A stretch of 63,678 bases of DNA from Ramicandelaber brevisporus (taxonomy: Eukaryota > Kickxellomycota > Ramicandelaberales > Ramicandelaberaceae). The DNA is taken from NCBI GenBank assembly GCA_025201865.1, contig MU602670.1, forward strand, positions 80,140-143,817. The letters run 5' to 3'. Below, in pieces: positions 49,962-54,030 of the stretch (position 1 is the first letter of the stretch; each line of letters opens with the position of its first letter). Made by a program: the position numbers and the translations under genes. The notes beneath the pieces are model-generated. The model did no database searches and had not been told where the DNA came from. It saw only the letters and a list, made by a program, of their open reading frames with translations.

Positions 49962-50996
49962 ATGTCAACTCGCCATCTGCCGCCCGGCAACAAGCACAAG
50001 CAGCTGCACGAGCTGTGCTACAACGAACTGGACATTCCCGCTGGAGCCAAGCTGGCGTTGGTCGCTGCCACCACCGAAACCACCGTGCGCGACGCCCTTG
50101 CACTGTTGGCTGAGCACAGCATCCTGTCTCTGCCTGTCTACTCCGGCTTCCGTCCTGGTGAGATTACAGCTATTATTAGCATCGTCGATATTCTCATTTA
50201 CCTGACGGGAGGCGATTTGGCAACATCCGCTGATATGACCAAGTTTGACGCGGCTGTTGCTGAGGATCGACTTGGCCATACCGTTGAACGTACGCTGACT
50301 TTGGATTCAGATCGGGAGAGCTATAGAGTGGCTCGATACGAGTGCATTGAGCCGCTGCGCGATGCAATCCGAGCTATGGGCAGCGGGGGCTTGCATCGTG
50401 TTCTTGTCGTGGATGTAGATGGCCGCGGCAGTGGGAAACAGCCCCCAGTGCTGCTGTCGCAGACTGATGTGGTGAGATACATTGAACTCCATCCTGATTG
50501 CGTGTCTTCTCTAGATTTGGATAGTTCCGTTGAAGACTGTCTCAAGCAGCTGCGTTCATCTCCACAGAAACAGACCGGAATTGGATCATCTGGTCATCAC
50601 CACAAATCATCGGATGGAGTTGTGACAGTTCCATCAGACTCAACCACGGCTCTGACCGCTGTGCGCCGTATCGCCAGCGACAAGGTTGGCGCCGTCGCCG
50701 TCATTGATGCAGACGGTCGCATTGTCGCAAACTTTAGTGCATCGGACTGTCGCGGCCTTGTCAACACCACATTGAGCGCGCTCAATATGCCAGTTTTGGA
50801 GTTCCTTTCGCGCGTTACTGCCACCCAGAAGGCGCCGGTTGTGTGCACGCCTGGAAGTACTCTTCGCCAAGTGATTGAGGTGATGCATGTCAATAACATT
50901 CATCGAGTCTGGGTTGTTGACGACGAGAAGAAACCAACTGGTGTCATCACATTGACAGATGTGCTTCGTCTTGTCGAGCTTGCATCTTCCCATTAA
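49962..50996 (+). CDS. Four-CBS-domain protein (AMPK-gamma/Sds23-like)
   Basis: A 344-residue protein with two Bateman pairs of CBS domains, which commonly bind adenine nucleotides. Visible CBS segments: TTVRDALALLAEHSILSLPV (about 33-52), PLRDAIRAMGSGGLHRVLVV, TALTAVRRIASDKVGAVAVI, and STLRQVIEVMHVNNIHRVWV with PTGVITLTDVLRLVE at the end. The last pair is the best conserved and resembles Snf4/AMPK gamma and Sds23/plant PV42 proteins. The exact subfamily is not determined. The ATG at 49962 is preferred because the frame upstream overlaps the leader. The stop codon directly abuts the left end of the inserted element at 51001, so its native 3' UTR has been displaced. Confidence 0.87.
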   Translation: MSTRHLPPGNKHKQLHELCYNELDIPAGAKLALVAATTETTVRDALALLAEHSILSLPVYSGFRPGEITAIISIVDILIYLTGGDLATSADMTKFDAAVAEDRLGHTVERTLTLDSDRESYRVARYECIEPLRDAIRAMGSGGLHRVLVVDVDGRGSGKQPPVLLSQTDVVRYIELHPDCVSSLDLDSSVEDCLKQLRSSPQKQTGIGSSGHHHKSSDGVVTVPSDSTTALTAVRRIASDKVGAVAVIDADGRIVANFSASDCRGLVNTTLSALNMPVLEFLSRVTATQKAPVVCTPGSTLRQVIEVMHVNNIHRVWVVDDEKKPTGVITLTDVLRLVELASSH

Positions 50997-51000
50997 AACA

Positions 51001-51063
51001 TGGGAGGGGGTTATTGCGCCCCAAAATGCGCCCCGTGGGGTGCAATAAACGGTGCAATAACCT
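51001..51063 (+). repeat. Left foldback end of the element
   Basis: Itself an imperfect palindrome: GGTTATTGCGCC near the start pairs with GGTGCAATAACC near the end, around a CGCCCCGTGGGG core. It could form a hairpin. It matches the right end in inverted orientation. Confidence 0.75.
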
Positions 51064-51276
51064 GAAAACAAAATGGTTTAATTTTTATCCCAGGGAGGCA
51101 ATATATATGACCACAATAACGCTCCCTCCTGGCTTCTGACCCAAACGTATCAATCTGCCCAGCGTATGTCTTGAAGTCGATATTTCTCCTCCTCACCACT
51201 TTCAGTACTTTACAGTTTTTAATATCTCATTGCTTGCAACAGCACTCTTCTCGAACTAACTTGCGTCCACATATCA

Positions 51277-51574
51277 ATGGCGACCAGCGCACCCCCCCCG
51301 CGTGCTTGAGCTTCTTGAGCAGATAAATGAGCTCGTCAGTCAGTTGGCTACAGGGCAGCTTACACAGCTGGATTCACAGTTTGGCGAGAAGGCGTCTTAT
51401 GCGGTTGTATGCATCGGTATACTGAATGACCGAATCACGAAGATACGCGATATCTTGTCAAGCCTTCTTGCAGCCTATGGCAACCTCCAGCCGCTTGGGA
51501 CCGTGCCGGGATTTCGGATTGCGTGCGATGGTGTGCCGCAGTCGTGTTTGTTCATTAATTTTTCATTGGACTGA
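51277..51574 (+). pseudogene. Short helical ORF with a one-base frame break at a C8 run, inside the element
   Basis: ATG at 51277 (MATSAPPPRA then stop) is one base out of phase with an 89-codon open frame from 51305 (LELLEQINELVSQLATG and on) that ends TGA at 51572-51574. The two are separated by a run of eight C (51292-51299); one C fewer would give a continuous product of about 98 residues, with an N-terminal ~65 residues that look helical and heptad-like. I do not recognise it; small kinetochore (DASH) or BLOC-type subunits have similar size and make-up, but no motif supports either. It may be a captured host gene fragment, a pseudogene, or a sequencing error in the C run. Confidence 0.38.
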
Positions 51575-52162
51575 CGAATGTCAACCATCTTTCTTCTGTT
51601 TTTTTTTTTTACTATCGTGGCACTGCAACGAATTCGTTCACTCAGCCTGGTCTGTGTTATCCCAATGGTTCAGCCGTCTTTTTTTCCGAGACATGTACCA
51701 GCCACGGTTGTTTCTCCCTTCCTTTCCACTACACACTAACACCTTTATTTCTTACAAGTATTGCTGTCCTCGTCTTCTGGTTACACCGCATCCCACTGCT
51801 CCTGCCGTTGTCTAGAGGTTTCCGTTCGGTGTCTCTGTCTGTCAATCTGTCTGGTTACTCTTTCGACTCGTTCGGTCGGTCATTTCGTATCACACACCTA
51901 CTTGGTTTCAGAACGGCTGACCAAGATGCAAGTCGCTCGCTGTTGGCGCATTTTCCCCAATACCTGATGGGGCTTTGCTGTCCTGTCTACCGGCTAGTTC
52001 TCCACGGGGGCTCAGGCATCGCTACCTTCCCTTGAACAGCGTCGCTGTACTTGGCGTAGTGGTAGTCTGACCTTTATTGGTGGCTGTTGCTCTAACAAGC
52101 ATGGGGTTCAATATGCTTATTATGCGAGCCGGATTCGCCTTGTTCCAGACGGATTTGCATCG

Positions 52163-52231
52163 GGGAGGGGTTATTGCATCCTGGAATACACCCCGGTGGG
52201 GCGCATTTCGGGGTGCAATAACCCCTTCCCA
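52163..52231 (-). repeat. Right foldback end of the element
   Basis: Imperfect palindrome with arms GGGGTTATTGCATCC and GGGGTGCAATAACCCC. Its reverse complement aligns with 51001-51063, including the shared AAATGCGCCCC segment. Confidence 0.75.
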
Positions 52232-52236
52232 TTAAA

Positions 52237-52755
52237 CATCCTCTCAGAACTCCTTTAAAGAAAAAGTATATCTTTTAATAGGCTAACAAAAAGTCATCTA
52301 AACTGCCTTTGCCCTGTCATTGCCATTGTCGCTACCATTGCACAGTGAATGTTCTAATTAGGCACCAGAGCAGTGGATAGAGCTGTATAGAACACTGTGT
52401 ATATATATGTGAGTGTGTGTGTGTGTGTGCGTATGCTCGTGTGATTGAGAGAATGAGTGTGTCACTGAAGTGCACTGAGAGAGTCGAAAGAGCGAACGAG
52501 CGTCGAGATTACCCCATCTACTTTTTGCTGCACTTCAGTTTGACCTGGTCAGCCTCGCATAGTGCATTCAGTCACCTAGAATTCTATTCCATTTTGTTTA
52601 TTCACACACGGCAAGAGGCCCTCCAGCAACGACGTCAGCAACAGCAGCAACAGCAGTAGCAACAGCCTGAATACCCTCTTTCCTCATTGTCCATTGTACA
52701 ACTCAACTCATCAGCTTCACTTTCACTTCCACTTTCTTTTGTTTTGAGTTTGGAA
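52237..52755. other. Leader region of ATG13
   Basis: A GT/TA-rich segment at about 52398-52430, then C/A/T-rich sequence and CAA/CAG codon-like repeats at about 52625-52665. The ATG13 frame is open from about 52687 but has no ATG until 52756. No other gene is seen. Confidence 0.5.
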
Positions 52756-54030
52756 ATGCGGCCCACGGGCGGCAGTAACGGTGGTGTTGGCAACAGTAGT
52801 AACAGTATTAACGGAAGTACCAGGGCAATAGCAGTAGCAGCGGGATCTTCGCCGTCTTTGGCAACAACGGCAACAACGGCAACAACAGCAACAACAGCAA
52901 CAACAGCGATGGCGTCAAGAGAACAACAGCTGGTTCGCAACTTCTACAACAAGTTTGCCCAAATAGTAGTTGGCTCTCGAGTAAACTCTTCAACAACAGG
53001 CAGTGATGGTGCTACGGGTGTAGTAGACCTGGCAGACTCTGTAGACACAATCGACGAGCCTGAGCAGTGTGGCAGTGTATCACGACCTTCCTCTCGAGCA
53101 GGCAGCATTCGTCAGCTACGTCAACAACAGCAACAACAGCAACAACAACAGCAGCAGTCACGAACAAGACAAGCATCCCAGCGCAAAGAACCACGAACAG
53201 ACTGGTGGTTCCACATTGGCACACCAGAGATTACAGACTCGGCACTGCGTAATGCCATCAAATTTTGGCGAGTGGCCAGCATGATGTCAGTAGAGCCGCC
53301 TCCCATGATGATTGACATTGTGCTCGACGTGTCACAACTTGATCCAAGTAGATTTGAACTGTTTGCAGTCGATGTACAGGCTGACACTCCATTGATCCGC
53401 ATCCCTCTGGCTAACAGAGATGGTGAGGAAGAGGAAGAGGAAAACACGTCGGTTATTCAACTGTCAGCTAGTGGTACTGCGGACGACGAGGATGATAACG
53501 AAGGCGATAATGATAGGGATAGACAGTTCAATGGTCCACATCCGCAGCAGTTGAGGCAAACAAACGAGAGTTCAGCGCGAGACCGCAGTCGAAGCCGCAG
53601 TAGAACGCCGGCTCACCTGGGTGCAAGCAGTGAACAACAGCAACAACAGCAGCAACAGCAGCAGCAACAATACACTCCACAGTCACATACACGACAGCGA
53701 ACGAGTGATTCATTGGCATCGGTCACCACAATACCTCGTCACTCACGCAGTACAAGTGCAGCTGGTTGTACAGCAGGCAAGGCCACATCGAGTGGTAATG
53801 TAAAGCCGGAATGTGGAGTACGAACAATTGTGATTGAATCATGGAGACTGCAGCTTATGCATCCACTCCCGCATCCTCCGCCAGAATCAGCAGTTGTGTA
53901 CAAGAAAGCACTGCTATTCTTCCGTTCATTGTATTTGTATACTCGATTGATGCCAGCTTACACATTGAGACATGAAATTGAACATGGAACTCTTGGAATG
54001 TCACATCGACAGCCACAATTGACACCTTCT

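Follow-up and report, generated by a model that had tools for sequence, protein, structure and literature searches.

A 1.2-kb segment at positions 51002-52230 of a 63,678-nucleotide stretch of the Ramicandelaber brevisporus genome (C4:80140-143817, contig MU602670.1; hereafter the window) is probably a non-autonomous cut-and-paste DNA transposon, consisting of two miniature elements placed around a cargo and served by a helper from elsewhere in the genome. It stands at the stop codon of a gene for a CBS-domain protein, and belongs to a new family, a variant of the foldback and miniature inverted-repeat transposable element (MITE) types. This reading draws directly on the number of copies in the assembly (17,887,837 bases in 510 contigs, denoted here by C and a number), on 8-bp duplications at AT-rich target sites, on end modules that stand alone, on the interior shared between copies, and on the mosaic pattern of the copies. 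We found no open-licence paper that describes such a family from Ramicandelaber, and none on MITE or foldback elements combining palindromic composite ends with target-site duplication.

A preliminary description of this DNA, made from the sequence by itself, had reported a 1.2-kb insertion with inverted ends. The insertion is real, and its edges are corrected here to those given above. The outer arms (51000-51034 and 52198-52232) are 91% complementary across 35 nt, and within the 120 bases at each terminus the two ends share an exact complementary run of up to 11 nt, where 200 plain shuffles averaged 6.4 and never exceeded 9. Each end was also said to be a foldback. This is fully true of the right end, which forms a complete palindrome (z -6.4, with no equally stable structure in 200 shuffles). 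The left end does fold, into a single long hairpin of 19 pairs (z -2.4, 3 of 200 shuffles equally stable), but its inner arm is missing the outermost bases, approximately seven, and the first 7 bases of the end consequently have no partner; judged by z-score alone, it is not more unusual than the terminal inverted repeat (TIR) of a related element at C52 (z -2.7, 2/200), which, like the TIR of another relative at C32 (z -1.7, 13/200), forms short hairpins only. Over its 61 bases the left end is 88.5% identical to palindromes that stand alone at C20 and C28. Folding of the inverted terminal repeats upon themselves is what defines foldback elements, a structural class rather than a lineage.

The two copies of the duplicated target, ATTAAAACAT and ATTAAACAT, are identical once one A is dropped, giving ATTAAA(A)CAT, a 9-bp match with one gap; with the element removed, the uninterrupted target site would read CTTCCCATTAAACATCCTCTC. 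The direct repeat CTTCCCATTAAA, which had been proposed for both edges, was rejected as a duplication: it mixes the actual duplication with CTTCCC, which at the right edge closes the element as its last six bases and at the left edge is part of the CBS coding sequence. The occurrence of CTTCCC before the target on both sides (50986-50991 and 52225-52230) may be a matter of chance; additional matches beyond the duplication were likewise seen at C73 and C8.

Features of the element and its surroundings (positions in the window)
Feature	Positions	Strand	Remarks
CBS-domain host gene, stop at insertion point	49962..50996	+	PF00571, four stretches
Left target-site duplication ATTAAAACAT	50992..51001	.	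includes stop TAA of the CBS gene, 50994-50996; equals right copy once one A of the A run is removed
Whole element, non-autonomous	51002..52230	+	1,229 bp; begins GGGAGGGGG, ends ...CCTTCCC
Left end, 61-bp foldback	51002..51062	+	solo-type palindrome minus outermost ~7 bases of inner arm
Possible poly(A) signal, AATAAA	51044..51049	+	sole AATAAA within the element
5' half of interior	51063..51590	+	leader and N-terminal coding part of the family zinc-knuckle gene; approximate inner boundary
ATG and first ~75 codons of zinc-knuckle gene	51277..51505	+	frame broken by eight-C run, 51292-51299
3' half of interior	51600..52161	+	mosaic among copies; one weak match of 130 bp outside copies
Exchangeable cassette, version A of three	51976..52062	+	alignment columns 1258-1345
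Right end, complete 69-bp palindrome	52162..52230	+	90% identity with solos at C5 and C454
Right target-site duplication ATTAAACAT	52231..52239	.	partner of ATTAAAACAT

Searches of the genome with the element returned at least 56 matching pieces, and its interior is common to at least 13 aligned loci. Both ends are present at five of these (the window, C98b, C73, C151 and C104; 1,199-1,384 bp), while the other eight are interrupted by N runs or contig ends or, in the case of C119, have no 5' part. Contig C98 carries two copies approximately 7 kb apart, the first of which is interrupted by an N run, and more family fragments are found at C351, C403 and C227. A pattern built on the family terminus matched 53 sites genome-wide with up to two mismatches, against 2 for the reversed control, and a second terminal pattern matched 51 sites against 3 in its control. 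The outer termini are GGGA in most copies, and have decayed in C73 and C8. In addition, the palindrome occurs by itself at nine loci, with a length of 45-70 bp, and seven of these solos (C5, C8, C20, C28, C57, C122 and C454) match the window ends across most of their length. Short, noncoding, multicopy, and having TIRs and target duplications, the solos at these nine loci can be classified as MITEs. The search with the end sequence, suggested in the preliminary description, thus recovered copies with paired inverted ends and 8-bp duplications; the ends occur both paired and alone, so that the alternative envisaged there, of single palindromes only, does not apply.

Some other sites turned up in these searches. 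Unpaired matches to the terminal pattern at C3 and C142 appeared chance-like when the sequence was inspected, and another one, with 2 mismatches, is seen at C241. At C351 (positions 190-4845 of C351:18600-23564) a family copy is split by an insertion of about 4.65 kb with the ends CACAGGTCGTTGAAA... and ...TTTCAACGACCTGTG, an inverted repeat of about 50 bp (82%) and a probable 3-bp duplication TGA, features which we take to resemble those of CACTA-type elements. A stretch of 1101 bp is 100% identical between C454 and C305, and one of 813 bp is 99.9% identical between C57 and C18; these are redundant contigs, and copy counts in this draft therefore need to be treated with care.

Target-site duplication was evaluated on 16 insertions with both edges available, namely five interior copies, two gene-bearing elements and nine solos. 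Flanks of 8 bp agree at 92 of 128 positions, whereas 5000 random re-pairings of the flanks averaged 63.5 and reached at most 84. A weaker excess is seen with flanks of 7, 9 and 10 bp (P 0.039, 0.008 and 0.005, respectively), and in the same re-pairing test of the 16 insertions there is none at 4-6 or 11-13 bp. Perfect 8/8 duplications are seen in 6 of the 16 own pairs and in 0 of 240 cross pairs; matches of at least 7/8 or at least 8/9 are seen in 10 own pairs versus 12/240 cross pairs, the six insertions outside this set being the window copy, C20, C28, C122, C57 and C431. The sites are AT-rich, most commonly of a form like WTTAAAAA. Four of the nine solos (C5, C454, C8 and C156) have a clear ungapped duplication. 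Those at C5 and C454 consist of the same 68 bases, letter for letter, and yet are flanked by different perfect duplications, TTAATCTA and TATAAAAA; identical palindromes in unlike duplications suggest that the end module, of about 68 bp, is likely mobile on its own.

The interior was thought in the preliminary description to be possibly captured. This has mostly not been borne out: the 5' half derives from a gene belonging to elements of the same family, the 3' half matches other copies, and a single match of 130 bp, at C104, speaks for the original suggestion. The gene is best seen in two relatives, at C52 (1,519 bp, 64-bp perfect TIR, duplication AAAAAGAA) and C32 (1,467 bp, duplication TTAAAAAA), where an N-terminal region is followed by an AT-hook-like stretch, a zinc knuckle (CSKCHQTGHN) and an acidic tail. 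In both relatives the two parts of the gene are in different frames, and in C52 there is a TAG after codon 85. On the minus strand of C2 (38464-38988), the zinc-knuckle gene is within an uninterrupted frame of 258 amino acids with only partial element-like ends, and may be either an ancient copy or a gene that the host has retained. The 5' half of the window interior matches the leader and the first ~75 codons of the C52 and C32 gene, and likewise C2; the 1.2-kb copies retain only this leader and about 75 codons. Across the genome the N-terminal part has 17 matching stretches at 16 loci, and the zinc-knuckle part has three. The ratio of nonsynonymous to synonymous substitution (Kn/Ks) in the 75-codon fragment is 0.95 (12 copies, 66 pairs), and so there is no sign of retention at the protein level in the 1.2-kb copies, as expected of a relic; the value of 0.70 against C2 may reflect older constraint. 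For the C2 protein, Pfam gave weak zinc-finger matches only (PF16588, E 2.5e-4, below the cut-off), and a protein search with 175 of its residues gave none at E <= 0.001 among 28 candidates. The one hit from the PDB, at E 0.048, we treat as none.

The 3' half, among the loci that were fetched, matches family copies and one weaker stretch outside of them: 51799-51925 aligns to C104:37847-37970 (minus strand) with 70% identity over 130 bp (E about 1e-8), in a region of CTGT-like repeats. The C104 stretch is outside a family copy, has no family terminus close by, and may be either a host source or a decayed old copy. The longest open frame used, of 184 aa and taken from the 3' half of the C151 copy, has a single match at E <= 0.001 among 5.8 billion proteins, namely a hypothetical protein of R. 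brevisporus, with 84% identity across 60% of the query, encoded on a contig of 52,675 bases, which is the length of C119, where a copy is located. The deposited hypothetical protein GQ42DRAFT_162264, on a contig of this length, appears to be a gene model drawn over the 3' half of a copy of the element. Pfam detected nothing in this frame or in the two frames of the window copy, where a 71-aa fragment reached E 0.0025 with DUF4972, below the cut-off. We also observed that the loci examined on C107 (local positions 2114-2343) and C30 (local positions 2402-2630) share 230 bp at 87%, of which about 120 bp resemble the family leader (76% to 51149-51267); terminal repeats were not noticed nearby.

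The copies are likely mosaics, whose parts have been shuffled between them. This is most evident in a cassette in the 3' half (alignment columns 1258-1345, 87 columns), covered by 9 of the 13 copies and grouped at 85% identity into three classes: window and C256; C98b and C104; C73, C119, C151, C172 and C448. Identity averages 96.7% within classes (lowest 94.1%) and 54.7% between them (highest 63.2%), whereas for the two blocks flanking the cassette the mean across the 36 pairs is 91.2% and 91.4%. Two upstream classes, 1 and 2 (columns 900-1075), are found with cassettes A and C in all four combinations, represented by the window, C448, C256 and C151/C172, and right ends of 45, 57-58 and 69 bp are paired with different cassettes. 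Local site incompatibility was computed for three sets, picked for coverage among the 13 copies (six copies over the whole length, nine over the 5' half and nine over the 3' half), and in each of them none of 5000 permutations was as low as the observed value, a strong indication of recombination. Exact shared runs of at least 96 bases exist in 12 of 78 copy pairs, with a maximum of 175.

The copies also agree with the preliminary description of a non-autonomous family, having inverted ends in pairs and duplicated targets. No transposase was found in them: only short frames are open, and none of the frames scanned with Pfam, from the window copy, C52, C119 and C151, encodes one. We searched the genome for helper domains of the Mutator-like element (MULE), hAT, KDZ and Merlin/IS1595 groups. 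There were no matches to the MULE domain PF10551, with a control positive in 3 of 14 genomes, and none to hAT (PF05699) or to KDZ of the Zisupton group (PF18758), the controls for both of which were likewise without signal. Mutator had been considered as a helper, inasmuch as a zinc knuckle and an AT-hook, both seen in the family gene, are reminiscent of Mutator proteins, and was dropped in view of the PF10551 result. The Merlin/IS1595 domain PF12762 was found at three places, C384, C426 and C506 (best E 3e-14). At C384 the open frame has about 310 residues counted from the first likely start, and the copy has a 25-bp TIR, GGTTGATGTTCAGTATAGGGGGCGG, starting with GG, and an 8-bp duplication, AGACAATC; no TIRs were found at the C426 and C506 matches. 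By eye, the C384 transposon (positions 3960-5064 of C384:4000-10146) sits inside what looks like the open frame of a retrotransposon.

Merlin elements are defined as having target duplications of 8-9 bp together with termini that start 5'-GG (PMC8101967). The family has both, i.e., target duplications of 8 or 9 bp and a TIR beginning with 5'-GG; an encoded DDE_Tnp_IS1595 transposase, or a TIR in common with an element that encodes one, was not found. Given the duplications, the GG termini and the presence of Merlin genes in the genome, the helper would most likely be a Merlin (IS1595-type) transposase. Such a transposase would bind the outer GGGARGGGGTTATTGCAC termini and paste the whole unit into WTTAAAAA-like sites; since the left palindrome is missing its inner terminus, the composite, and not the left module alone, would be what moves. 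Repair of copies from one another, following excision or through ectopic conversion, would exchange end modules and interior cassettes.

A number of observations weigh against a composite transposon of this kind. Element edges were placed by eye with the help of the terminal motif and are uncertain by 1-3 bases in C73, C151 and C8. The duplication in the window itself requires a 1-base gap, which leaves it outside the ungapped set, and five of the nine solos (C20, C28, C122, C57 and C431) have no clear ungapped duplication, while the solos at C156 (45 bp) and C431 match the window ends in their terminal parts only. Two genome-wide terminal patterns revealed no facing pair that would delimit an element longer than the 1.5-kb one at C52, as an autonomous partner might be, with several termini adjoining gaps or contig ends. 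The lack of a transposase is judged from short frames and from Pfam scans of frames from four copies. The TIR at C384, the sole Merlin element with both TIRs seen, is unlike the family TIR past the first bases, so that the link to a Merlin helper is made by superfamily features alone and membership in Merlin is not claimed. Finally, this is a draft assembly with gaps beside several copies, and the mosaicism could partly be an assembly effect.

The same kind of element might be moved by a helper other than Merlin, be it P, hAT, Mutator or something else, lost or unassembled, that acts on the GGGARGGGGTTATTGCAC ends. We regard this as a serious possibility, if somewhat short of an even chance: P elements also make 8-bp duplications (PMC1562414), Tm1 of the Mutator/foldback group has composite TIRs and 8-10 bp duplications (PMC3169594), and the C384 TIR differs, but the MULE domain gave no match in a search with a positive control, and the searches for hAT and KDZ gave no match either, an argument weakened by their silent controls. 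A different history, possible though doubtful, is one that starts from an element of the C52/C32 type, most of whose gene was lost and whose TIRs were turned into palindromes through inverted duplication or recombination, the solos arising later by TIR-to-TIR deletion. The leader and N-terminal gene part common to the window copy and C52/C32, the merely short hairpins of the C52/C32 TIRs, and the TIR extension and two-TIR derivatives of Galileo (PMC3573991) are all in line with this history; the sizes of the palindromes, which are 45, 57-58 and 69 bp at right ends and 45 and 67-70 bp among solos, fit instead with exchange of whole modules.

That the mosaic pattern is an artefact of joining reads from different copies in the draft seems unlikely to us. 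Exact runs of the length noted above could mislead an assembler, a number of copies are cut off by N runs or by the end of a contig, and the redundant contig pairs C454/C305 and C57/C18 exist; however, the cassette, at about 87 columns, is shorter than common reads, site compatibility is local in the 5' as well as the 3' half, and modules and cassettes are mixed in copies that lie within contigs of 58-144 kb (window, C98b, C73). It is also improbable that the family captured part of its interior from the host. The ~130-bp match at C104 outside a copy, the uninterrupted C2 gene beside partial element-like ends, which would allow an early gene capture, and the leader-like sequence of C107 and C30 with no terminal repeats noticed can be cited for capture. 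On the other hand, many loci have this same interior flanked by the same ends, the zinc-knuckle gene is present in two further elements with perfect duplications, the C104 match contains CTGT-like repeats and could be an old fragment, and the 3' half has no protein match outside R. brevisporus.

As to the host gene, its predicted protein is 93% identical, at full query coverage, to a deposited R. brevisporus protein, the model of which omits some residues present in the window frame; the NCBI protein has the identical end, LASSH. The stop codon is within the duplication, and joining the flanks restores the same stop with an unchanged protein, in agreement with the earlier claim that the gene survives the insertion. 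The insertion thus likely struck the stop codon and left the protein unaltered, and the native 3' untranslated region would be displaced by 1.2 kb. The only AATAAA of the element is 48 bases past the stop, none is present in the first 470 bases beyond the element, and one may guess that the element supplies the poly(A) signal of the CBS gene. A search for an empty site with 52237-53300 returned, among the 40 of 191 candidates that were scored, only this segment itself and short repeat matches. A scan of the DNA for bacterial promoters and terminators gave nothing above shuffles, as expected for a fungus.

Several known systems share properties with this family. REPINs of bacteria are small palindromic repeats which, as in R. 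brevisporus, occur singly and in inverted pairs; they differ in being bacterial and in having a different type of transposase, and are not known to carry a cargo of comparable size. Merlin (IS1016/IS1595-related) elements are similar in their 8-9 bp duplications and GG termini, and Merlin transposase genes are present in this genome, whereas in the family no copy was found with a transposase, the TIR is unlike that of C384, and the ends are palindromic. The Tm1 family of root-knot nematodes, a Mutator/Foldback family with 8-10 bp duplications in 45 of 53 cases, has composite terminal repeats, members of ~1.1 kb without transposase and short MITE-like members, but its transposase is Mutator-like and its TIRs are largely tandem repeats (PMC3169594); in R. 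brevisporus, each end is a single palindrome found alone elsewhere, and no MULE domain was found. Galileo of Drosophila (P superfamily) has two-TIR derivatives, as well as chimeric copies attributed to ectopic recombination and conversion, but also 7-bp duplications, far longer TIRs and 12 chimeric copies bounded by non-matching 7-mers (PMC3573991), in contrast to the mosaic copies C98b and C73, which retain matching 8-mers. Another similar system is AgaP2-P12MITE, a composite P-MITE of Anopheles with 8-bp duplications, for which an origin by macrotransposition of two neighbouring elements en bloc has been proposed; its ends come from two P subfamilies, and independently mobile palindromic ends are not described in the sections devoted to it (PMC1562414).

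What is unusual in R. brevisporus is that both ends are versions of a miniature element that stands alone, with duplications of its own, in the same genome, and that this is accompanied by cassette-like shuffling. It is tentatively proposed, with rather less than even confidence, that this is a eukaryotic composite transposon, in which a palindrome of about 68 bp is mobile alone, pairs of it mobilise the intervening DNA, and modules are swapped to yield combinatorial elements from few parts. To our knowledge, the origin of miniature elements, and the movement of intervening DNA by pairs of them in eukaryotes, have been argued mostly from single examples. The same palindrome, alone and as both ends, with readable duplications, in one small fungal assembly of 17.9 Mb makes the question directly testable, and the mosaic copies can serve as a natural record of how dispersed repeats exchange sequence.

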